A stretch of DNA of 64,000 bases from Alloalcanivorax gelatiniphagus (GTDB lineage Bacteria; Pseudomonadota; Gammaproteobacteria; Pseudomonadales; Alcanivoracaceae). This document shows positions 9,894 to 52,694 of the stretch, in pieces; the first letter of the stretch is position 1; the number at the start of each line of letters is the position of its first letter. The stretch lies in contig NZ_VCQT01000035.1 in assembly GCF_005938655.1 (NCBI RefSeq), forward strand, positions 1-64,000, given 5' to 3'. The notes beneath the pieces are model-generated. The model was not told where the DNA came from. It saw only the letters and a list, made by a program, of their open reading frames with translations, and ran no database searches. The translations under genes and the position numbers were made by a program.

Positions 9894-10165
9894 CTAGGGC
9901 CTGTTCACACTACTTGCATCACGCCTGCTGGATGTCATTTTGGTCTCCAGCTAGGCGGAGGGAGCGCGGTTTGGTCATTCCAAATAAGCGACCGACAACG
10001 ACGCTGGAGGCCAAAAAGGCGCCAGCCCTTCGGGTTGTGGCTAAAAACCCACCCCTCCGCGTTACTCGTCGTTCATTTGGCGCCACCAAACTTCTCTCCT
10101 CGTGCCTTGATGGGTGGGTTTTTAGCCACAACAGGCGTAATGCAAGTAGTGTGAACAGGCCCTAG
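9894..10165. mobile_element. 272-bp MITE-like element with long terminal inverted repeats
   Basis: Arms of about 35 bp at 9894-9928 and 10131-10165 are inverted repeats of each other with only about two mismatches; both begin CTAGGGCCTGTTCACACTAC. A second, nested inverted repeat of about 21 bp lies inside (10033-10053 and 10110-10130, GTTGTGGCTAAAAACCCACC type). No transposase is encoded; open frames across the element do not resemble proteins. The outer CTAG (or its central TA) could be a target duplication. The TAG stop codon of the AraC gene lies in the right arm. It fills most of the 346-bp gap between the acylase and AraC genes. Confidence 0.7.
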
Positions 10166-10929
10166 AGCATGCTCACTTCCATCCCACGGGCCAGGAATGA
10201 GGGCGTCAGACCGAAGAACTGCTTGAGGGTGCGGGTCAGGTGGGCGGCGTCGGAGAATCCCACATCGTGGGCCACCATGGACAACGGTTCGTGCCGGGCG
10301 ATGAGCTCCACCGCGCGGCGCATGCGCGCCCACAGGGTGTAGCTTTTGATGGAAATGCCCATCTTGTCGGAGAACAGATGCCGCAGCCGGTGGGCGGACA
10401 GCCCCACCTCCGCGCCCAGTTCCTCCAGGGTGCTGGTCAGCGGCAGTTCCTTTTTGATTTTCTGGGCGATGTGGATCACCCGCATGTCCATGGGCATGCG
10501 GATCGGTCGGTAGCCGCTCAGGGCCTGGGGCAAGGCGGTGGTCAGCCGGAACAGGCCGGCGGGATCCAGGCTGCCATCCCGGGCGCCGCGCAGGGTGGCC
10601 GCGTCGATGCGCCCCGGGGTGACGATCACCGGGCGCACCGGTTGGCGGCCGAGCATGGCGGCCAGGCAGTGGTATTCGTAGCTCTGCGGGTCGAAGTTCA
10701 TGGACAGCAGCGGCGCGCGGCTGGCATCCAGGGAACGGGCGGTCTGATTGCCGACCAGGGCGGCCGGATACTCGGCCACCCCGCCCCGTTCATCGCCAAG
10801 CCGGAAACCGGGCTCGCCCAGGGACACCAGCAGGGTGACGGTGTGCCGCTGGGTGAGGCCGGAGACGATGCTTTCGGTCAGGTACAGAAAACGGTCGTCC
10901 CACACGTACAAGCGGTTCTGGTACGACAT
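10162..10929 (-). CDS. AraC-family transcriptional regulator
   Basis: A 255-residue protein. The C-terminal 100 residues carry the two helix-turn-helix motifs of the AraC/XylS family: TLEELGAEVGLSAHRLRHLFSDKMGISIKSYTLWARMRRA, then MVAHDVGFSDAAHLTRTLKQFFGLTPSFL. The N-terminal 150 residues (MSYQNRLYVWDDRFLYLTES) resemble a small cupin-like sensor; no ligand can be named. Start: ATG preceded by GGGAAGGG. The stop codon lies inside the terminal repeat of the MITE-like element, so the last few residues may have been altered by the insertion. The nearest downstream gene on the same strand is the acylase, a possible but unproven target. Confidence 0.88.
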   Translation of the reverse strand: MSYQNRLYVWDDRFLYLTESIVSGLTQRHTVTLLVSLGEPGFRLGDERGGVAEYPAALVGNQTARSLDASRAPLLSMNFDPQSYEYHCLAAMLGRQPVRPVIVTPGRIDAATLRGARDGSLDPAGLFRLTTALPQALSGYRPIRMPMDMRVIHIAQKIKKELPLTSTLEELGAEVGLSAHRLRHLFSDKMGISIKSYTLWARMRRAVELIARHEPLSMVAHDVGFSDAAHLTRTLKQFFGLTPSFLARGMEVSML

Positions 10930-30512: not shown

Positions 30513-32855
30513 TCAGAGTCCCTCCGGCCGGCCCTGGTCGGGCAAGGTGTAGTCACACACACCGTCGGGGAAGATCGCGTTGAGGCGGTTGACCTGGTCG
30601 GAGGTGGGCTGCCAGGTGCCGTAGGTGCCGTCTTCCAGGGCCACGGATACCGGCTTGAGCGCGCACTTGAACACGTCGCCCTCGATGGGCGCGCCGGCGA
30701 CGATCCGCGAGGTGGAGTACACCGGGAAGTAGGCGGTGCAGGCGCCGTCCGCCTGGTCATCCAGAATGCCGTTCCAGACATCGTCGCCCCGGGCGATCAG
30801 ATTGCCCTGGGTGTCGAAGCAGGTGTCCATGGCCTGGGCCGGTTTGTTGGCGGCCACGCCCGCTTTCGGGTTGGCGCGCAGGTTGGCCATCCAGTCGTCG
30901 ATCACTTCCAGGGCCAGGGGCACGGCGCTGTAGTCTTCCTCGGGCCGAGCGTCGGCGAACCAGATCACCTGGTTGTCCGCGTTGCCGTCGTAGTCGAGCA
31001 TGCGCTGGCGCACCGCGAAGGACTGGTGCACGTTGTGCATGTTCAGCTCGTGTTCCAGGTAGGGCCGGTAGTCGATGATCGGGATGCCTTCCGCCTTGCC
31101 ATGGAACACCATGCCGGAATTGTAGGCGCCGTTGATCGCTTCCAGGTCCCCTTGGGTACGCGGTGCCGGCGATGACGGGTCGCTGCCCAGGGTCATATTG
31201 CGGCTGCTCCAGGGGTCGAACATCGACGGGTCGTTCATCACATCCTGCACCGAGCCCAGGAACGGGAAGCCTTCCTGCACCATGTCTTTCTGGTCTTTCC
31301 AGCCGCCCACCCGGGCGTTCAGGTCGAGGAATTCCTCCGGGGTGATGTTGTGTGCGTTCAGCGCCTCCAGGCCGTACTGCACGCCCACGTTGTCGAACAG
31401 GGTGTGCGGGTAGCCTTCGCCGTCCACGCCGTAGATGTTGCGCAGGTCGTCGTAGTGGCTCCAGTTCACCGTGGCCATCAGACCGGCGGGTTGCATCTGC
31501 TCCTGGTTGTCCGCCTCACCGTAGTAGGGGTTCATGGTCAGCGGCGTCAGGCCGCGCCAGGATTCCACGCATTCGGTGGAACCCGGCGCGCCGCCGTAGT
31601 TCAGTTGCTGCTTCAGCGGGTAGAGCGGGTCTTCCACATCGTCCTCGGCGTTGAGACCCACCAGCCAGGTGCGGTTCTTGGTGGTGGCCCACTTGGGGTT
31701 GTCCTTGTCGGTGGCGTCCATGTAGTACTCGAGCAGTTCACAGTCACCGATGTGGATGGTCTGGGTGACCATGTCCGGGTAGCTCTGCACCGGAATCGCC
31801 GCGTCGATCAGACCGGGATGATTCTGCGCGTACACGTACTGCTGAATGGCACCGCCGGAGGCGCCCAGACCCACGGTGTAGAGCGGCTCGCCGTATTCCT
31901 CCAGGAACCGTTCCTTGACCATCAGCGCGGTCTCGCCGCCCACCTGCATGTTGTAGTGCTCGCTCATGCGGGTGCCGGTGGAGTAGATGATGGCATAGCC
32001 CTGGCCGAGCACGTCGGGCTGCAGGGCACGGCGTTTGTAGTCCATGCGCCCCTGGGTGTGGCCGATGCCCACGCCACCCTGGAAGCGGAACATGAGCCGG
32101 CCATTCCACAGGTCGGTGTCCAGGGAACCGGCTTCCTCGCCGGCGTCGGCGAGCATGGCGATGGAATAGATAAAGCGGTTGATGGTGCCGCGCTCCCAGC
32201 GCACCACGAAGTCCACCACGCGGCCGTCCGACAGGGTGGTAGTGGCCATGTCCGACGGCCGCGAGCCGCCCTCCGGCAGGGGCTGATACTCGCCGCCGGT
32301 GGTGCGGTACCAGTATTCGGTGTAGGGCTCGAGGCCGCAGTCCCGGCTCAGGCCGATCTGCTGGTTCTGGTCGTCATAGACCGGAAAGCCCTCGTTGCCG
32401 TCGGTGTCCACCAGCGGCTGCTTGCCCAGCTCGGACACCGTGGTGCATACGAACGGGTATTGGTGGGGGCCGGAAAACATGGGGCCTTCCACCGGGTGGT
32501 TGGTGAGGGTCAGGCGGGCCAGGGTGCCGTGGTCCGGGTGCCAGACGGTGAGTTCGTTCTCCCCTTCTTGCAGGCCCCGCACCATCCCTTCGACGCCGTC
32601 GTCGCTGGCCTGGAAACCTTCGGTGTCCAGGTCCTCGCCGTTGAGGCGCAGGCGCGCCCCGTCCAGCAGGCCGGCGTCACCGCGCACCGCCACCCGGGCG
32701 TCTCCGCCGCTGACCCACTGGGGTTCGCTGGACACCACCCGCAGGCTGGCGGAGGGCGTGGCTTCCGGGGAATGGGAACTGGAGTCGCCGCCACAGGCGG
32801 TGAGCAGGCAGGCGGTCGCCAACGCGAGTGCGCTGCCCGTTACGCGTACAGACAT
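30513..32855 (-). CDS. DUF6351 family lipoprotein, putative alpha/beta hydrolase (paralogue 1)
   Basis: A 780-residue exported lipoprotein: signal MSVRVTGSALALATACLLTAC with lipobox Cys21 and then GGDSSS. An N-terminal beta-sandwich-like part (about 30-120, LRVVSSEPQWVSGGDARVAV) is followed by FSGPHQYPFVC and a large catalytic region with the nucleophile elbow GLGASGGAIQQYVYAQNHPGLIDA. The C-terminus ends in RLNAIFPDGVCDY. Family proteins are annotated DUF6351; esterase-type chemistry is inferred from GxSxG only. A clear paralogue lies at 48323-50542. Start: ATG 32855, with GGAG upstream and the signal peptide beginning there; a longer in-frame reading is rejected. The promoter region carries a 35-bp bipartite box (32931-32965) shared with two other lipoprotein genes. 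Confidence 0.85.
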   Translation of the reverse strand: MSVRVTGSALALATACLLTACGGDSSSHSPEATPSASLRVVSSEPQWVSGGDARVAVRGDAGLLDGARLRLNGEDLDTEGFQASDDGVEGMVRGLQEGENELTVWHPDHGTLARLTLTNHPVEGPMFSGPHQYPFVCTTVSELGKQPLVDTDGNEGFPVYDDQNQQIGLSRDCGLEPYTEYWYRTTGGEYQPLPEGGSRPSDMATTTLSDGRVVDFVVRWERGTINRFIYSIAMLADAGEEAGSLDTDLWNGRLMFRFQGGVGIGHTQGRMDYKRRALQPDVLGQGYAIIYSTGTRMSEHYNMQVGGETALMVKERFLEEYGEPLYTVGLGASGGAIQQYVYAQNHPGLIDAAIPVQSYPDMVTQTIHIGDCELLEYYMDATDKDNPKWATTKNRTWLVGLNAEDDVEDPLYPLKQQLNYGGAPGSTECVESWRGLTPLTMNPYYGEADNQEQMQPAGLMATVNWSHYDDLRNIYGVDGEGYPHTLFDNVGVQYGLEALNAHNITPEEFLDLNARVGGWKDQKDMVQEGFPFLGSVQDVMNDPSMFDPWSSRNMTLGSDPSSPAPRTQGDLEAINGAYNSGMVFHGKAEGIPIIDYRPYLEHELNMHNVHQSFAVRQRMLDYDGNADNQVIWFADARPEEDYSAVPLALEVIDDWMANLRANPKAGVAANKPAQAMDTCFDTQGNLIARGDDVWNGILDDQADGACTAYFPVYSTSRIVAGAPIEGDVFKCALKPVSVALEDGTYGTWQPTSDQVNRLNAIFPDGVCDYTLPDQGRPEGL

Positions 32856-32904
32856 GTTGCTCTCCTCGATATTTTTGTTATCGCCGGGCTGTGCCGGATG
32901 ATTC

Positions 32905-32965
32905 AAGGTAGGAGGGACGGCGGCCGCATAACAGGTACAGTTTTGCGGAAGTGGCTGGAACAGTG
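32905..32965 (-). promoter_or_regulatory. bipartite activator box and -10 for the DUF6351 paralogue 1 gene
   Basis: On the minus strand CACTGTTCCA (32965-32956), 15 bases, then CTGTACCTGT (32940-32931); 19 bases after the CCTGTT word is TACCTT (32910-32905), a plausible -10. The two halves are a direct repeat of CTGTnCC with a 23-bp period. The same box with identical spacing occurs at 32970-33004 (plus) and 50654-50688 (minus). Confidence 0.6.
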
Positions 32966-32969
32966 ACAC

Positions 32970-33031
32970 CACTGTTGCAGTGAAAAGGGGGCAACTGTGC
33001 CTGTTTTATCCGCCGCCCGGCGGGCTAGATA
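32970..33031 (+). promoter_or_regulatory. bipartite activator box and -10 for the 33074 lipoprotein gene
   Basis: CACTGTTGCA (32970-32979), 15 bases, CTGTGCCTGT (32995-33004), then TAGATA (33026-33031) as a -10, about 43 bases before the ATG. It meets the oppositely oriented box at 32931-32965 head to head across ACAC, forming the perfect palindrome AACAGTG-ACAC-CACTGTT. Confidence 0.6.
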
Positions 33032-33073
33032 ACGGCTTCAAAAAACAATAAACATTGTTCGGGAGAACTGACC

Positions 33074-35275
33074 ATGCCCTTATCCGGCGCTTCCCGCGCG
33101 GCCCTGGCCGGCGCGTGTCTGCTTACCCTGCTGTCCGGTTGCGGCGGCGATTCCGGCTCCTCCGGTGGCTCAACGGCGCCCGCCGCCGGCGTGGACCTGT
33201 CCGGCCTGAATCTGGAGACCGCCGAATACTGCGACCTGACCGTGGCCACCCGCTGCCTGTACCCGTTCCCCAATGACTATTTCACCCGCGCCGACCCCGG
33301 CACCCCCACCGGGCGGCGGGTGAATTTCCAGCGTGCCGCCATGCCGGTGGCGCAGCCGGTGTCGATCGCCGCCAACCCCTACGCGCCGGTTGGCGTGGAA
33401 ACCACCGAGGCCACCCCCATCGATCCCAGCGAGTGGAACCGCAACGACGGTTTCTCCCCCGGGGCGATGATCCAGACCTGGCTGCCGGACGTGGACCTGG
33501 CCGCCAGCGGCGCGGTGGGCATTGGCGACCTGTCCGACACCTTCAACCCGGATGCGCCGATCCTGCTGCTCGACGGACAAACCGGCGAGCGGCAACTGAT
33601 GTGGGCGGAGCTGGACGCCAACGCCAGCAGTGACGCCGGCCGCGCGCTGATCATCCGCCCGGCGAAAAACCTGCTGGAGGGCCGCACCTACATCGTCGCC
33701 CTGCGCAATCTGGTCAACGGTGCCGGCGAAACCATCCCGCCGTCGCCGTTGTTCCGCGCCTACCGGGACGGCCTGGACACCGGCAAGCCGGCGCTGGAAG
33801 CCCGCCGCCACACCATGAACGAGCTGTTCGAGACCCTGGAAAGCCACGGCGTGGCCCGGGACGGCCTGGTGCAGGCCTGGTCGTTCACCGTGGCCAGCCA
33901 GAAGAGCCTCACCGAGCGGTTGCTGCACATCCGCGACCGGGCCTTCGCCGGCCTGGGCGGCGGCGCTCCGGCGTTCACCATCGACCAGGTGGGCATCGAC
34001 ATTCAGGGCCAACCCCGCGCCGGCCTCAGCCGGGGCATCAGCGGCACCTTCCAGGTGCCCAATTTTCTGAATCAGCCCGGTGGCGGGCCCGGTTCCAGCT
34101 TCCACTACGACAACACCGATGATCCGGACGCCCTGCCCGAGCAGTTGAACGGCGACGACACCGTCACCGCCCGCTTCCGTTGCCAGGTGCCGGAAACCGC
34201 CGTGTCGGACTTCAACGACCCGGCGGCCCCGGTGACGCCGGCGCGGGCCGCCCTCTACGGCCATGGTCTGTTCGGTGAAGGCCCCGGCGGCGAGTTCCGC
34301 TCCGGCAATGTTCGCGCCATGCAGACCGAACACAACATCCTGTTCTGCGCCACCGACTGGATCGGCATGGCCCAGGAGGACTTCCTGGCCGGTGTGATCC
34401 ACCGCATCCTGGCGGACGTGTCGCGGCTGCCCCGGCAACTGGACCGCAGCCAGCAGGGCCTGCTCAACGCCATGTTCCTGGCGGAGTTGCTGCGTCATCC
34501 GGACGGTTTCGCCAGCCACCCGGCGTTCCACCATGGCACCGACAACGCGCTGATCTATGACCCCTCGGAAGTGTTCTACGACGGCAACAGCCAGGGCGGC
34601 ATTCTGGGCGGCGCGCTGGTGGCCACCGCCCCCAATATGCACCGTGGCGTGCTGGGCGTGCCGGGCAGCAACTACAGCCTGCTGCTGCGCCGCTATGGTC
34701 CCTTCCCGCAGCGTTTCGGCGTGATCCTGTACCAGGCCTACCCGAATGAGCTGGACCGCAGCCTGGTGCTCGGCCTGATGCAAATGCTCTGGGACCGGGC
34801 GGAAAATAACGGCTATCTGAGTCACCTGGCGGGACGCTACCTGCCCGGCACCCCGGCCAATAAGACCGTGTTGCTACAAGCGGCCATGGGCGATCATCTG
34901 GTCACCAACTGGAGCGCGGAAATCATGGCCCGCAGCATCGGCGCCGCCATCCACGAACCCACCGCCCGTCTCGGTGAGCACCCGGATGCCAACCCCTATG
35001 TGGCGATTCCGCGCATCGAGCAATACCCCTACCACGGCCATGCGCTGATGGTCTGGGATTCCGGCGACTACGATCCGGTCAGCGGCCACGGCACCCCGTT
35101 CGCGCCCAGCACCAACACCGGCCCGGTGCTCGGCGAGGACCCCCACGAATCGCCGCGCAACACGGTCAGCGCCCGCCAGCAGAAATCCGCGTTCCTGCGC
35201 TCGTTCGGCGCGGTCGTTGATGTGTGCGGCAACAGCCCCTGCTACAGCGATGACTACACCGGCCTGAGCCGCTAG
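33074..35275 (+). CDS. putative lipoprotein esterase/lipase (alpha/beta hydrolase type)
   Basis: A 733-residue lipoprotein: MPLSGASRAALAGACLLTLLSGC gives lipobox Cys23, then GGDSGSSGGS. After a linker come AEYCDLTVATRCLYPFPNDYFT and a long region ending in a hydrolase-like part with YGHGLFGEG, the nucleophile elbow YDGNSQGGILGGALVA, and YHGHALMVWDSGDYDP, which may hold the His/Asp of a triad. There is a Cys pair near the C-terminus (VCGNSPCYSDD). I recognise the overall plan as that of uncharacterised bacterial cell-surface lipoproteins; substrate is unknown. It is divergent from the DUF6351 gene and shares its box type, so the two are probably co-regulated. SD: CGGGAGAA. It ends in a 4-base tail-to-tail overlap with the MocR gene. 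Confidence 0.8.
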   Translation: MPLSGASRAALAGACLLTLLSGCGGDSGSSGGSTAPAAGVDLSGLNLETAEYCDLTVATRCLYPFPNDYFTRADPGTPTGRRVNFQRAAMPVAQPVSIAANPYAPVGVETTEATPIDPSEWNRNDGFSPGAMIQTWLPDVDLAASGAVGIGDLSDTFNPDAPILLLDGQTGERQLMWAELDANASSDAGRALIIRPAKNLLEGRTYIVALRNLVNGAGETIPPSPLFRAYRDGLDTGKPALEARRHTMNELFETLESHGVARDGLVQAWSFTVASQKSLTERLLHIRDRAFAGLGGGAPAFTIDQVGIDIQGQPRAGLSRGISGTFQVPNFLNQPGGGPGSSFHYDNTDDPDALPEQLNGDDTVTARFRCQVPETAVSDFNDPAAPVTPARAALYGHGLFGEGPGGEFRSGNVRAMQTEHNILFCATDWIGMAQEDFLAGVIHRILADVSRLPRQLDRSQQGLLNAMFLAELLRHPDGFASHPAFHHGTDNALIYDPSEVFYDGNSQGGILGGALVATAPNMHRGVLGVPGSNYSLLLRRYGPFPQRFGVILYQAYPNELDRSLVLGLMQMLWDRAENNGYLSHLAGRYLPGTPANKTVLLQAAMGDHLVTNWSAEIMARSIGAAIHEPTARLGEHPDANPYVAIPRIEQYPYHGHALMVWDSGDYDPVSGHGTPFAPSTNTGPVLGEDPHESPRNTVSARQQKSAFLRSFGAVVDVCGNSPCYSDDYTGLSR

Positions 35276-36717
35276 TCGCCACCGGCGGCCGCCAGTTCGG
35301 CGGCCGCTTCTCCCAGCCAGCACAATGCCCGGCGCACCGAAGGTGTGATCGGGCTGCCGGCGTTGAGGCGCAGATAATCCGCGTGCTTGCCATCCAGGGA
35401 AAACACGCCGCCGGGAAACACATGGATGCCCCGGGCGGCGGCCCGCTGGAACAGGTCCAGGGTGTCCACGCCACCGGGCAGCCGCACCCACAGCACGCAG
35501 CCGCCGGTGGGCCGGGTCAACCGGGTGCCCGGCGGGAAATAACGGCGCACCTCCCGGGCCATGGCCTCCACCTGGTCGTGCAGATGCAGGCGCAGTTCGC
35601 GCAGATGCTGGGTATAGAAGCCGCTCTCCATCAGCCGTCCCATGACGATCTGGGAAATGGAGGTGGAGGTGATGGTGCTCAGTTGCTTGAGTTCCCGGAA
35701 ACGTTTCTGGAAACGGCCCGCCGCCGCCCAGCCGATGCGCAGGCCGGGCATCAGGCTTTTCGAAAAGCTGCTGCAATACAGCACCATGCCGCTGCGGTCG
35801 AAGGCCTTGGCCGGCGGCGCGCTGTCCTTGTAGACGGTGTCGCCCCAAACATCATTCTCGATCAGCGGCACCTGGTAGCGCTCGGACAGCGCCACCAGGG
35901 CCGCCTTGCGTTCCAGGCTCATGGTGAAGCCCAGCGGGTTCTGGGCATTGGTGGACACCAGGCAGGCGGCCACGCCGCCGCGCTGAAACACCTGCTCCAG
36001 GGCCGCCAGGCTGATGCCCTGGCGGGGATGGGTGGGCACTTCCACCACCTTGCGCTGGTGGGTCTCCAGCAGCAGCAGGGCGCCGTAGTAGGTGGGCGAT
36101 TCCACTACCACCGTGTCACCGGGCCGGCTGACGCTGCGCAGCGCCAGGGACAGGGCCTCCATGGCGCCGCTGGTGACGATGATGTCCTCGGCGGTGACCG
36201 GCACCTCATAGGACAGGCTGCGGCGCGCCAGATGGTGGGTGAACAGGGCGCTGCCGTTGGGGTGCATGTAATCCCAGACTTCCAGGGCGTGATGGCGGGT
36301 CACATCGCGGATGGTGGCCATCACCCGGTCCACCGGCAGCACCTCCGGCCCGGGCAGCGCGATGCCGAGCCGCACCATGTCCGGGTCGGCGTGCAGTTCC
36401 ATGTAGTGCAGCACCTGTTCGCTGAGCGACACCTCCACCGGCAGCAGCGGGTAGCGGGAGCCGTCCGGCTCGGGGATGTCGTGCACATCGGAATTGCGTA
36501 CATAGACGCCGGACTGCGGGCGGATCTCCAGGTAGCCTTCCGCTTCCAGCTGACGGTAGCTCTGCATCACCGTATTGACGCTGACCTTGAACATGGCGCT
36601 CATGCGCCGTACCGAGGGCAGCTTCTGGCCGACGGCGAAGGACCCGGCGCCGATCTGCTCCAGCAGACGCCGGCTGATGCGTTCGTAAAGGAAGCGGTCG
36701 TCGATCACCGGCGACAC
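35272..36717 (-). CDS. MocR-type PLP-dependent transcriptional regulator (GntR HTH + aminotransferase)
   Basis: A 481-residue fusion. The N-terminal GntR winged helix (about 1-75: LYERISRRLLEQIGAGSFAVGQKLPSVRRMSAMFKVSVNTVMQSYRQLEAEGYLEIRPQSGVYV) is joined to a fold-type I aminotransferase domain (about 110-470) with STNAQNPLGF, IENDVWGDT and the PLP lysine in YCSSFSKSLMPGLRIGW. MocR proteins sense PLP-linked ligands and control nearby genes. Start is GTG: 36717, or 36708 with AAGGTG at good spacing. A perfect 12-bp palindrome lies just upstream (36734-36745). Its relation to the adjacent lipoprotein genes is unknown because transcription is convergent. Confidence 0.88.
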   Translation of the reverse strand: MSPVIDDRFLYERISRRLLEQIGAGSFAVGQKLPSVRRMSAMFKVSVNTVMQSYRQLEAEGYLEIRPQSGVYVRNSDVHDIPEPDGSRYPLLPVEVSLSEQVLHYMELHADPDMVRLGIALPGPEVLPVDRVMATIRDVTRHHALEVWDYMHPNGSALFTHHLARRSLSYEVPVTAEDIIVTSGAMEALSLALRSVSRPGDTVVVESPTYYGALLLLETHQRKVVEVPTHPRQGISLAALEQVFQRGGVAACLVSTNAQNPLGFTMSLERKAALVALSERYQVPLIENDVWGDTVYKDSAPPAKAFDRSGMVLYCSSFSKSLMPGLRIGWAAAGRFQKRFRELKQLSTITSTSISQIVMGRLMESGFYTQHLRELRLHLHDQVEAMAREVRRYFPPGTRLTRPTGGCVLWVRLPGGVDTLDLFQRAAARGIHVFPGGVFSLDGKHADYLRLNAGSPITPSVRRALCWLGEAAAELAAAGGD

Positions 36718-48322: not shown

Positions 48323-50542
48323 TTAGTCCCGCGCCGAGTAATCCAGCCAGGTGCCTTCCAGGGAACGCTGCTCAACACCCTTGCGGCTGTAATCACAGAC
48401 CCCGTTGGGGAAGATCGCGTTAAGACGGTCCCACTGACCGCCAGTGAAGAACACATTGCCGTAGTCGAAATCGTCGGTGGGCCGCAGTTCGCACTTGAGG
48501 ATGTCGTCGGCCACCGGACCACCGGCGGCGATTCTCGGCGTCGGCGTCTTCGGATAAAGGCTGTTGCAGACCCCGGCCTCATCGAAGGTGGCCACTTCGT
48601 TGACGCGCTCACCGTTGTCCACCCGCCAGCAGGCATCGGTCGCCGTGGTGGGCTTGTGGTCCACCACCTTGGCGGCGCTGAGCGGCGCCGGATCGGCGAC
48701 CAGGTCATCCAGCCATTGGCTCATCAGCTCGAACTGCCGCAGGGAAACCTGTTCGGCCAGCTCGGCCAACGCTTCCTGCTGGTCTTCCCCCAGGTTCAGC
48801 AGCATCGCCAGCTCCGGTCGGGGGAACAGCCAGACCACCTGATTGTCGGCGTTGCCGTTCTCGCGGATCAGTTTTTCGCGGATCTGGATGTCGTTGTAGA
48901 TGGTATGAATATCGGCGCCGGGCTCGGCGTAGAAGCGGAGGTGAAAGATCGGCACCGTGGCCAGGCCACCACCGCCGGTGCCCACCCGGCCGCGCCCATA
49001 GGCGAGCGCCAGGGCCCGCGGGTCGGCCACGGTACGCTCGGCGGCCAGCTTGCCGTCGGCGTCAAAACCGCCCACGCCCGCGTTCACATCGAGAAACTCG
49101 TCCACGGAAATGTCGCCGGCGCGCAGCGCCTGCAGGCCGTACTGAATGCCCACGTTGTCCAGCGGACGCCGCACGATGCCGGTGTCCGGATCGGTGCCCA
49201 AGGTATTGATATTGATGTCGTACAGGGAGCAGCGCACGCCGCCCGGGTTGGTGACCGGGTCATAAACCAGGCTGGCGTTGCGCAGGCCACAGGCCGGCGA
49301 CACCGAACCGCTGTCGACCACGATGGCGTCGCCATTGCCGAAGTCCCAGTTTCTGCAGGTGCCGGGCAGATGACCTTCAAACGCCTGGCGGGTGGCGTCG
49401 TCCGCCGGGTGGGCGGTGAAATAGCGATTCAGCAGCCGGCAATCGGAAACCGCCTGGGCGGTGCCGAACACATCCGGGAAGGCGGCATTGGGCATCACAC
49501 CATCCAACAGGCCGGGGTAGTTCTGGGCGATCAGCATTTGCTGAATGGCACCGCCGGAACCGCCCATGCCGACCATCCACATGGGCACGCCGTACCCTTC
49601 GATAAAGCGCTCCTTGACCATCATCATGGTCTCGGCGGCGACCACGTCGTTGACGTTGACCTTGTTCACATTGAGCGTGGAGATGATGTAGCCGTAGCCG
49701 CTGGCGATGGCGTGGTTGGCGCCGCTGTCCTTGAACACATCGCCGAAATCGTTATCGCCCTGGTTGTATTGCGCGCCGGTGGACTCACCCAGGCGGAACA
49801 CCAGCCGGCCATTCCAGCCGCTGTCGTTCCAGGTGCCCTCCACCTGAGGATCTTCCAGCACCGCGATGCGATATATGGAACGGTTCACGGTGCCGGATTC
49901 CACCCGCACGATGTAGGGAACGGTGTCGCCGCCTAGCGTGGTGGTAGTGGCCAGATCCGACGGGCGCGGGCCATAGGGGTCGGCCAGCACCTGGCGCTCC
50001 CCGGCCTGATTGAAGTAGAAGTAGTCCAGCCGCCGTTCCACCGAGCAGTCCGTGTCCAGCGGCGCGCCCAGGTCGGAGTCCACCGTGCGGCATTCAAACG
50101 GCATCAGGTGCGGCCCGGAGAACACCGGGCCGGCGGCGGGATGATTGACCACCTGCAGCGACGCACTCAGGGTCTCGCCCTTCATCGTGGTCGCCTCCAC
50201 CTCCACCCGGCTGGGGCCCAGTGGCAGGCCGGAGATAACACCGGACAGATCGCCGTCGCGCACTTCCATATCCGGGCTTTCCGGTAGCTCCGCGCCATCC
50301 ACCCGCACCCGCACCGCCGGCTTCAGCGCCTCATCCGCATGCAGCCGCACGCGCATGTCGCCGCCGGTCACCCGGGCCGCGTCGCTGGACACCACCGACA
50401 GGCTCAGGGCCCGGGTTTGCTCACCGTCGTCATGGTGACCACCGTCACCGCCACAGGCCAGCAACAACATGCCCAGCGTGGCGACCACGGCGCCCTTGAG
50501 CCCGTTTGCCGAGCGCTCATCCCTTTCATTTTTTATATTCAT
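48323..50542 (-). CDS. DUF6351 family lipoprotein, putative alpha/beta hydrolase (paralogue 2)
   Basis: A 739-residue lipoprotein with signal GLKGAVVATLGMLLLAC (lipobox Cys30) followed by GGDGGHHDDGE. It is collinear with the protein at 30513-32855: SLSVVSSDAARVTGGDMRVRL, VVNHPAAGPVFSGPHLMPFEC, MVGMGGSGGAIQQMLIAQNYPGLLDG (nucleophile elbow GGSGG), DNVGIQYGLQAL, GNADNQVVWLF and RLNAIFPNGVCDY all have counterparts there. Esterase-like chemistry is inferred; substrate unknown. Start: ATG 50542 (MNIKNERDER), before the signal peptide; another ATG eight codons upstream is in frame. A 35-bp box identical in layout to the two at 32.9 kb lies upstream (50654-50688). Confidence 0.85.
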   Translation of the reverse strand: MNIKNERDERSANGLKGAVVATLGMLLLACGGDGGHHDDGEQTRALSLSVVSSDAARVTGGDMRVRLHADEALKPAVRVRVDGAELPESPDMEVRDGDLSGVISGLPLGPSRVEVEATTMKGETLSASLQVVNHPAAGPVFSGPHLMPFECRTVDSDLGAPLDTDCSVERRLDYFYFNQAGERQVLADPYGPRPSDLATTTTLGGDTVPYIVRVESGTVNRSIYRIAVLEDPQVEGTWNDSGWNGRLVFRLGESTGAQYNQGDNDFGDVFKDSGANHAIASGYGYIISTLNVNKVNVNDVVAAETMMMVKERFIEGYGVPMWMVGMGGSGGAIQQMLIAQNYPGLLDGVMPNAAFPDVFGTAQAVSDCRLLNRYFTAHPADDATRQAFEGHLPGTCRNWDFGNGDAIVVDSGSVSPACGLRNASLVYDPVTNPGGVRCSLYDININTLGTDPDTGIVRRPLDNVGIQYGLQALRAGDISVDEFLDVNAGVGGFDADGKLAAERTVADPRALALAYGRGRVGTGGGGLATVPIFHLRFYAEPGADIHTIYNDIQIREKLIRENGNADNQVVWLFPRPELAMLLNLGEDQQEALAELAEQVSLRQFELMSQWLDDLVADPAPLSAAKVVDHKPTTATDACWRVDNGERVNEVATFDEAGVCNSLYPKTPTPRIAAGGPVADDILKCELRPTDDFDYGNVFFTGGQWDRLNAIFPNGVCDYSRKGVEQRSLEGTWLDYSARD

Positions 50543-50627
50543 GGTGCCTCTTTGAATTGTTGTCATACATCATGGCCGGGCACCGGGGACGAACCCGCAC
50601 GATGCGCTCACCGAAACCGTCAGCCAG

Positions 50628-50688
50628 AGGCTAGGCCGATCAAAGCGGGCCAGACAGGCACAGATCAGGGAAAAGCGTTGGAACAGTG
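50628..50688 (-). promoter_or_regulatory. bipartite activator box and -10 for the DUF6351 paralogue 2 gene
   Basis: On the minus strand CACTGTTCCA (50688-50679), exactly 15 bases, then CTGTGCCTGT (50663-50654); 19 bases after CCTGTC is TAGCCT (50633-50628) as a possible -10. It leaves a leader of about 80 bases. Same half-sites and spacing as the two boxes at 32931-33004. Confidence 0.6.
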
Positions 50689-50728: not shown

Positions 50729-52144
50729 TCAGCGGGGCGCCGCCGCGCCCCCCACCACCTCCGCCAGGGCGGCCACGCCCCGGTCGATGGCGTCGCCGTC
50801 GATCACCCCGAACCCCAGTAGCAAGCCGTCCAGCCCGGGGTCGCCGGCATGGAACGGCGCCAGCGGATTGGCGCGCACATCGGCGGCGTCCAGCCGCGCC
50901 GCCAGATCGGGCACCGGCGCCGTGAAGCGCAGCGCCATATGGATGCCGGCCACCTGGGGCAACGGCGTCCACAGGCGCGGATACTCCGCCAGCGCTTTCT
51001 CCAGGCGCGTGCGCCGGGCCGCATACAGGCGCTGCATGCGCCGCAGGTGGCGGGCGAAATCACCGCCGATCATCAGCCTGGCCAGCGCCCGTTGGGTGAC
51101 CAGCGGCGGGTAGCCATCGTTGAAGGCCCGCGCCCGGGTCAGCGCCGTGGCCAGCCCCGGCGGCATCAGCAGATAACCGAGCCGCAGGTCCGCGTGCAGC
51201 ACCTTGGAGAACGAGCCCAGGTAGGCCACCCGGCCGTCCCGGTCCAGGCTTTTCAAGGCGTCCAGGGGGCGGCCCTGGAAGCGGAACTCACCGTCATAGT
51301 CGTCCTCCACCACCAGGGCGTCGTGGCGCCGGGCGAACGCCAGCAGCGCCAGCCGCCGTTCCAGGCTCATCGGCATGCCCAGGGGAAACTGGTGGGAGGG
51401 CGTCACATAGACCAGGCTGGCCGACGCCGGCAGCTCATCCACGCACAGGCCCTGCTGGTCCACCGGCACCGGCACCACCCGGGCGCCCCGGGCCTCGAAC
51501 ACCGCCCGCGCCGGCGGGTAGCCCGGCTCTTCCATCGCCACCGTGTCGCCGGGGGCGACACGTACCCGCGCCAGCAGGTCCAGGCCCTGTTGGGCGCCCT
51601 GGGTGATCAACAGGGCGTCGCCGTCACAGGCCAGCCCACGGCTGTAGCCCAGGTAGCGGGCGATGGCCAGGCGCAGCGACGCCTCTCCCTGCGGGTCGCC
51701 ATAGAAGCCGATGTCCCGGGAGGTCTCACGCAGGGCCGCCATCATCGCCCGGCGCCAGGCCGCCCAGGGCAACAGCGCCCGGTCGGTAACGCCACCGGGA
51801 AAGTTGTGCCGGCCCGGCGCCAGCCGGCCGGCCCAGGCCGGCGGCGACCGCCAGTGCGCGCCGGGGCCGGGCCCGGCCTGCCGCAACGTCTGTTGCGGCG
51901 GCGGTGGCACCCGCAGCACGAAGGTGCCCCGGCCCGTTGTGGCGCCCAGAAATCCCTCCGCCGCCAGGCGCTCGTAGGCCTCCACCACCAGCCGCCGGGA
52001 CAGGCCCAGTTCCGCCGCCAGCACCCGGCTGGGCGGCAGCCGTTCGCCCGGGGCCACCTGCCCGTCCAGCAGGGCCCGGCGCAGGGCCTCGTAAAGCCGC
52101 TGGCCGAGGCCGCCGGCCCCGTCCAGGGAAAGATGAATCTGCAC
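50729..52144 (-). CDS. MocR/PdxR-type PLP-dependent transcriptional regulator
   Basis: A 471-residue GntR-aminotransferase fusion. The winged helix (about 1-75: GQRLYEALRRALLDGQVAPGERLPPSRVLAAELGLSRRLVVEAYERLAAEGFLGATTGRGTFV) is followed by a Pro/Gly-rich linker and a fold-type I domain with VTPSHQFPLGMPM, VVEDDYDGEFR and the PLP lysine in LGSFSKVLHADLRLGYL. Start is GTG (52144). It is divergent from a carboxymuconolactone-decarboxylase-like gene, a common arrangement for MocR regulators and their target; direct repeats lie between them. Confidence 0.9.
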   Translation of the reverse strand: MQIHLSLDGAGGLGQRLYEALRRALLDGQVAPGERLPPSRVLAAELGLSRRLVVEAYERLAAEGFLGATTGRGTFVLRVPPPPQQTLRQAGPGPGAHWRSPPAWAGRLAPGRHNFPGGVTDRALLPWAAWRRAMMAALRETSRDIGFYGDPQGEASLRLAIARYLGYSRGLACDGDALLITQGAQQGLDLLARVRVAPGDTVAMEEPGYPPARAVFEARGARVVPVPVDQQGLCVDELPASASLVYVTPSHQFPLGMPMSLERRLALLAFARRHDALVVEDDYDGEFRFQGRPLDALKSLDRDGRVAYLGSFSKVLHADLRLGYLLMPPGLATALTRARAFNDGYPPLVTQRALARLMIGGDFARHLRRMQRLYAARRTRLEKALAEYPRLWTPLPQVAGIHMALRFTAPVPDLAARLDAADVRANPLAPFHAGDPGLDGLLLGFGVIDGDAIDRGVAALAEVVGGAAAPR

Positions 52145-52159
52145 CGTCCGGCCTCGCTG

Positions 52160-52196
52160 ATTGGTCCCGTTAAAGGGTCGAAATTGGATCCTGTTA
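52160..52196. promoter_or_regulatory. ATTGG direct repeats in MocR/CMD divergent promoter
   Basis: ATTGGTCCCGTTA (52160-52172) and ATTGGATCCTGTTA (52183-52196) are near-identical and 23 bp apart, about two helical turns. An inverted CCAAT follows at 52202-52206. MocR regulators often bind direct repeats of this kind; this is a candidate operator. Confidence 0.5.
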
Positions 52197-52256
52197 TCGA
52201 ACCAATCCGATTCTACCCTGAGCGGGTCCCTTCCTCGACCGCCTCAAGGAGGCCCC

Positions 52257-52694
52257 ATGAAAGCCCGATTCGATTACCAAAAAGCTTCACCGGACGCCAT
52301 CAAGCACCTGTTCGGCTGTCAGAAGGTGTACGCCGCCAGCGGCCTGGAGCCGCGCCTGATGCATCTGGTGGAACTGCGCGCCTCGCAGATCAACGGCTGT
52401 GCCTTTTGCATGCACATGCACGCCGGCGAAGCGCGCAAGATCGGCGTGCCCGACGAGGTGCTGGACACCCTGCCCGGCTGGCGCGAGGCGCCTTGGTTCA
52501 GCGACCGGGAGCGCGCCGCCCTGGCCTGGACCGAGCGGCTCACGCGGCTGGCCGAGCCGGTGGATGACAGCCAGGAGTACGACCGGCTGGCCACCCACTT
52601 CACCGAGAAAGAACGCACCGACCTGACCTATCTGATCGCCATGATCAATGCCTGGAACCGCTTCGGCGTCGGCTTCCGGCGCGAGCCGGAATAG
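52257..52694 (+). CDS. carboxymuconolactone decarboxylase family protein (AhpD-like)
   Basis: A 145-residue AhpD-fold protein. The redox motif is CAFCMHMH (Cys48, Cys51, His55), which in AhpD relatives supports peroxidase or disulphide-reductase activity; LFGCQKVYAASGLEPRLMHLVELRASQING is the typical lead-in. True 4-carboxymuconolactone decarboxylases lack the CxxC pair, so a redox role is more likely. SD CAAGGAGG precedes the ATG. Divergent from the MocR gene, which is its probable regulator. It converges on the TonB-receptor gene. Confidence 0.9.
   Translation: MKARFDYQKASPDAIKHLFGCQKVYAASGLEPRLMHLVELRASQINGCAFCMHMHAGEARKIGVPDEVLDTLPGWREAPWFSDRERAALAWTERLTRLAEPVDDSQEYDRLATHFTEKERTDLTYLIAMINAWNRFGVGFRREPE

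Follow-up and report, generated by a model that had tools for sequence, protein, structure and literature searches.

The analysed window comprises the first 64,000 nucleotides of contig NZ_VCQT01000035.1 of Alloalcanivorax gelatiniphagus (RefSeq assembly GCF_005938655.1; Alcanivoracaceae) and contains two divergent genes for lipoprotein-like proteins, DUF6351_A and LIP733, with two copies of a bipartite sequence element, here called the box, in between. The window further encodes a paralogue of the first protein, DUF6351_B, two MocR proteins and an AraC protein (Table 1).

Table 1. Positions of genes, boxes and -10-like hexamers within the window.
Feature	Position	Strand	Description
AraC gene	10162..10929	-	only AraC among 33 window proteins scanned against Pfam
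DUF6351_A, lipoprotein-like	30513..32855	-	PF19878 (tannase-like), E 3.7e-186
-10-like TACCTT	32905..32910	-	20 nt after the DUF6351_A box
Box before DUF6351_A	32931..32965	-	CACTGTTCCA-N15-CTGTACCTGT, 0 mismatches
Box before LIP733	32970..33004	+	CACTGTTGCA-N15-CTGTGCCTGT, 0 mismatches
-10-like TAGATA	33026..33031	+	21 nt after the LIP733 box
LIP733, 733 aa, lipoprotein-like	33074..35275	+	GNSQGG motif by eye; putative serine hydrolase
MocR1	35272..36717	-	PF00392 and PF00155; proposed regulator of the box
DUF6351_B, lipoprotein-like paralogue	48323..50566	-	PF19878, E 1.3e-225
-10-like TAGCCT	50628..50633	-	20 nt after the third box
Third box, before DUF6351_B	50654..50688	-	CACTGTTCCA-N15-CTGTGCCTGT, 0 mismatches; absent from the first-pass annotation
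Second MocR gene	50729..52144	-	adjoins the third box

The DUF6351 family is described in Pfam as 'tannase-like' and of unknown function; DUF6351_B may instead start at the ATG at 50542. LIP733 matched neither a Pfam nor an NCBIfam family at E ≤0.001, and sequence searches of the PDB with LIP733 and DUF6351_A returned no match at E ≤1; the predicted fold of LIP733 has a mean pLDDT of 45. By eye, a lipobox and a GxSxG-type serine motif can be recognized in both DUF6351_A and LIP733. The first-pass annotation, made from the sequence alone, held that the box, and not common ancestry of the promoters, links these unrelated-looking genes. The two genes indeed show no detectable common ancestry; a profile comparison of both proteins aligned no more than 46 columns, located at the signal-peptide end. 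The box moreover connects them to DUF6351_B, 18 kb away. The leaders of DUF6351_A, LIP733 and MocR1 carry the sequence AAnAAnAA (e.g. window 32856–32890 and 33038–33060), which is the CA motif of Hfq/Crc catabolite repression. It falls into the 45 nt that precede the start in 17 of 19 LIP733 and 12 of 25 MocR1 genes compared to 1 of 57 other genes, and in 17 of 30 matches to the DUF6351_A query (some of them DUF6351_B) and 2 of 7 matches to the DUF6351_B query, counts in which homologues enter many times and some starts are approximate.

Both box copies described in the first-pass annotation proved exact, including the 15-base spacer and the 23-bp period of CTGT, while a third perfect copy about 18 kb from the pair had been missed. 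The boxes of DUF6351_A and LIP733 lie back-to-back and face outward with a gap of 4 bp. Scanning the 4.2-Mb genome with the pattern CACTGTTSCA-N15-CTGTRCCTGT recovered these three perfect sites and no others at up to three mismatches, each of them before a lipoprotein gene. The reversed pattern, employed as a control at the same stringency, gave no match in this genome, and shuffled windows contained 0.02 matches on average at up to three mismatches versus the three observed in the window. The consensus of 41 sites resolves the box into an 11-bp direct repeat, ACTGTnYCwGT, with a period of 23 bp, rarely 24 bp, the former slightly exceeding two helical turns. We rejected the notion that the paired boxes form one palindrome for a single dimer because the third box is solitary and the gap between back-to-back boxes varies between loci, from 4 bp (window, L068) through 10–12 bp (L024, L108, L109 and L110) to 32 bp (L020), 68 bp (L071) and about 330 bp (L102).

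The strict pattern at up to two mismatches was found in 15 of 193 genomes, one of the 15 being that of the window, with two matches for the reversed control; the matches in genomes G020, G048, G147 and G177, which have two mismatches and lack the linked genes, were taken as chance. Alignment of 29 distinct sites yielded a longer consensus in which the 15-base spacer is partly conserved. With the refined pattern at up to one mismatch, 41 matches were obtained in 20 of the 46 family genomes (reversed control, 1), 39 of which are situated at the MocR1 locus or before DUF6351_B. At zero mismatches in 390 genomes of the order, there were 20 matches in 10 genomes, all 20 at these loci, and none for the reversed control. 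The off-locus one-mismatch matches in G019, G032 (C1) and G418 (C40) are taken as chance.

The box precedes DUF6351_A in all 19 family genomes that have the locus, LIP733 in all 15 that have this gene at the locus (two boxes with a 24-bp period) and DUF6351_B in all three orthologues found, and the same genes are preceded by such boxes in other Alcanivoracaceae and in some Pseudomonas/Halopseudomonas. No box was present upstream of eight DUF6351 genes unlinked to MocR1 (a subset of the unlinked genes listed), or of four unlinked LIP733 paralogues (with almost no upstream sequence in L074 and about 350 bp in L070). L107 has two DUF6351 genes, and the first of them lacks a box and counts as a miss. 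Across 27 loci the period of the repeat was 23 bp in 38 cases, 24 bp in two and otherwise (13 to 36) in three. The table of 41 sites pools sites found with the strict pattern and with CTGT-N19-CTGT, so that the invariance of both CTGT cores is partly by construction, and omits G007, G008 and G010, near-copies of retained rows, as well as the two boxes with a 24-bp period. The loose CTGT-N19-CTGT scan also matched away from genes (L102 at 4109, L109 at 4440). Inheritance of the box solely with duplicated promoters is unlikely, since spacers and flanks diverge while box and -10 are retained; 26 of the 41 sites are left after dropping those at least 55% identical in spacer and flanks. The box is real and conserved, and most likely an operator-promoter module. 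A further box with a -10 of TAGATA occurs in the Alloalcanivorax xenomutans/balearicus group (L020 10176–10210, L028 10093–10127 and L069 8298–8332), the last of these being an orphan at a locus that lacks LIP733.

MocR1 combines an N-terminal GntR winged helix (PF00392, residues 10–73, E 9e-18) with a C-terminal fold-type-I aminotransferase-like domain (PF00155, residues 128–455, E 1.3e-31), and its residues 9–407 match the GabR structure 4n0b. All 19 aligned orthologues share K320, contained in an SFSK motif, and R450, whose presumed roles follow from the aminotransferase fold; K320 would be the candidate PLP-binding lysine. Orthologues of at least 67% identity are encoded in 19 of the 46 family genomes, and the box without mismatch is present in these same 19. 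MocR1 is found in none of the 27 others, among which there was a single one-mismatch match to the box (G019) and no perfect one. Likewise, in the 390 genomes of the order, MocR1 (E ≤1e-118) is present in 10, identical to the 10 box-bearing genomes. As linked MocR1 and target genes may be gained or lost together, this co-occurrence is not independent evidence, and the Fisher values computed for it disregard phylogeny. LIP733 is missing from the locus in G002, G003, G006 and G011, all of which keep MocR1 and the box, and the comparison of 12 loci revealed that only MocR1 and DUF6351 genes are common to all of them (LIP733 to 10), MocR1 being the sole shared regulator gene.

A pattern-based scan of a species-genome collection with the MocR1 alignment detected 22 loci, including a 25% fragment. 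Of the full-length or doubtful loci, we inspected the seven most distant, with MocR1 identities of 55–70%, which belong to two Pseudomonas (WN033 and MYb185), two Halopseudomonas, MAGs labelled Moraxellaceae and Rhodobacteraceae, and one member of the Ectothiorhodospiraceae. Six of the seven (MocR1 57–70%) carry a box or boxes before DUF6351 and, where present, LIP733, and 10 of the 11 refined-pattern matches (up to one mismatch) in the seven genomes are at the locus. The seventh, L112 (MocR1 55%), has no box by pattern and a degenerate candidate with a 24-bp period by eye only. The contig binned as Rhodobacteraceae (L102), whose MocR1 shows 70% identity, is perhaps a mis-binned Alcanivoracaceae contig or the result of a transfer. 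MocR proteins often repress their own genes, autoregulation being common in this family and not universal. By eye, no complete box stands in the 220 nt upstream of the 19 MocR1 orthologues, which gives no indication of autoregulation.

Counted in nucleotides from the box, the TA of a -10-like hexamer begins at an offset of 20 or 21 in 38 of the 41 sites. A full TAnnnT is found at this offset in 34 of 41, compared to at most one site at any of 68 other offsets, and in 20 of the 26 sites left after removal of similar ones. The -10 hexamers are weak, 27 of 41 sites agreeing with the consensus at 3 of 6 positions, and the best -35 at a spacer of 15–19 nt agrees with its consensus at 2–3 of 6 positions in 36 of 41 sites. 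The poor -35 and the fixed distance to the -10 therefore place the second half-site in the position of the -35. This agrees with the proposal of the first-pass annotation that a bipartite direct-repeat box occupies a class II activator position at a fixed distance from a -10-like hexamer, with two corrections: in the window the distances are 20 nt (minus strand) and 21 nt (plus strand) instead of 19–20, and TAGATA, described as TAnnnT-like, does not strictly conform to this pattern due to its final A. From the geometry of these sequences we infer that activation is favoured over repression.

Taken together, we consider it probable that the box is the operator of MocR1 and that MocR1 activates a small surface-hydrolase regulon from a class-II-like position. 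What is directly established for this reading is the sequence, its conservation, its restriction to the locus, its co-occurrence with MocR1 and the promoter geometry; from there, we infer binding, activation, effector and enzyme activity. Against this reading weigh the linkage of MocR1 to its targets, the missing complete box ahead of MocR1, the exceptions in L112 and L107, the weak -10 hexamers and a period slightly longer than two helical turns. MocR1 would bind as a head-to-tail dimer with one winged helix per 11-bp direct repeat, the repeat starts lying 23 bp, or about two helical turns, apart. The downstream half-site would replace the -35 hexamer about 20 nt before the conserved TAnnnT -10, and in this place bound MocR1 could recruit RNA polymerase in a class-II-like manner. 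An amino-containing effector, sensed through the PLP-binding domain, would switch the activity of MocR1. The regulon would be tiny and mostly local, with DUF6351_A and LIP733 controlled via the paired boxes and DUF6351_B via the box 18 kb away. It appears quite unlikely that MocR1 on the box instead acts as a repressor that covers the -35 region and blocks RNA polymerase until released by an effector. The overlap of the box with the -35 position would suit repression as well; however, a repressed promoter would be expected to possess a usable -35, yet 36 of the 41 sites offer no better than the 2–3 matching bases, and the fixed distance between box and -10 rather suits polymerase contact. Moreover, in the part of a survey of MocR regulons that we draw on, the structural targets of GabR, TauR and PdxR are activated (PMC5320631).

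The first-pass annotation favoured an activator of the AraC/XylS type, whose class II sites likewise have direct-repeat half-sites at the -35, and suggested a search for a co-varying regulator of this type. The one AraC gene we tested is matched in 15 of 19 box genomes and in 0 of 27 others (E ≤1e-70). Against its role as the box regulator stands its position 22 kb from the boxes and its inconsistent retention with the box: at this cut-off G009 (whose assembly is 90% complete), G028, G030 and G035 yield no match; the gene is incomplete in G001 (residues 1–181), G003 (1–201) and G011 (116–255) and interrupted by a stop in G002, and all of these genomes keep the box. The AraC gene was also not seen within the distant 20-kb loci, and AraC sites typically have a spacing of 21 bp, unlike the 23-bp period of the box. 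As the gene is without a match at this cut-off in four and broken in four of the 19 box genomes, we rejected it as the regulator of the box and regard an AraC/XylS-type activator as very improbable; the regulator that is linked to the box and inherited along with it is instead of the MocR (GntR-aminotransferase) type. Between the AraC gene and a gene for a penicillin-amidase-like lipoprotein sits a MITE-like element (window about 9895–10170) with inverted ends containing GTTCACACTACTTGCAT, a sequence matched at 10 places of the genome with no more than one mismatch, eight of which form four inverted pairs with starts 122 or 237 bp apart. A related hairpin is located upstream of MocR1 in L022.

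A further scenario is that an unlinked regulator reads the box and MocR1 is a mere neighbour, for which it speaks that our whole-genome searches covered three regulators only (MocR1, the AraC gene and the second MocR gene). MocR1 is, however, the only regulator gene that the 12 compared loci share, and its presence tracks that of the box in 390 genomes, leaving this scenario with very little probability. In the window and in G003, the second MocR protein is encoded immediately upstream of the DUF6351_B box; it is nevertheless hardly credible as the reader of the box and was rejected because its distribution mismatches that of the box, with matches (E ≤1e-120) in 10 of 19 box genomes, in 5 of 27 boxless ones and in none of the seven genomes of genus g3, all of which keep the box. 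Its gene faces one of the carboxymuconolactone decarboxylase family (window 50729–52694), and the two likely represent a separate MocR divergon.

The MocR1 reading can be compared to described systems. According to Suvorova and Rodionov 2016 (PMC5320631), MocR operators mostly consist of direct and/or inverted repeats at slightly variable helical-turn spacing and mostly contain a TGT or TGG group; direct repeats are bound by GabR and TauR, and two direct boxes (186 regulons) are among the common operator types, as far as the part of the survey used here describes them. Both features, repeats at helical-turn spacing and a TGT/TGG group, are found in the box, which contains ACTGTnYCwGT twice and thus, as judged from its sequence, fits the MocR operator rule in that part of PMC5320631. 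As in GabR/TauR-type systems, the regulator consists of a GntR winged helix and an aminotransferase domain, its targets adjoin its own gene, and the operator comprises two direct boxes with a TGT core, a near-constant spacing of about two turns and a position suited to activation. Unlike in these systems, most of the loci read have MocR1 either in convergent orientation to its presumed targets or upstream of them, and no box before it was seen. The best NCBIfam match of MocR1 is PdxR (NF052282, 250.9 bits, under the curated cut-off of 320 bits); in contrast to PdxR of vitamin B6 metabolism, the targets seen for MocR1 are not pdx genes. The MocR themes named in the portion of PMC5320631 consulted are PLP, GABA, taurine, ectoine, redox enzymes, transporters and PLP enzymes, from which surface lipoprotein hydrolases differ. 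Limited literature searches (MocR operators; DUF6351; MocR with Alcanivorax; MocR with lipoprotein, esterase or hydrolase) did not reveal a description of this regulon, consistent with the first-pass statement that no regulon with this motif was known. The MocR1 regulon is most likely new and of a known kind.

A more speculative and rather unlikely extension is that a B6-bound MocR sensor reports an amino compound freed by hydrolysis at the cell surface and induces the very lipoprotein hydrolases that release it, in a nutrient-scavenging feedback. Back-to-back boxes 4–12 bp apart would then function as a cooperative two-way switch, and catabolite repression acting on the mRNA would come in addition through the CA-rich leaders. 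Such a feedback, if true, would be unlike the published MocR themes.

With MocR1 as their likely regulator, two uncharacterized families of surface hydrolases gain a promoter and a testable class of inducer, and MocR control would reach beyond the themes of amino acids, vitamin B6 and redox. Three boxes in a single 18-kb stretch, along with many conserved variants, offer a compact setting in which to test how MocR dimers in head-to-tail arrangement recognize direct repeats and activate transcription.
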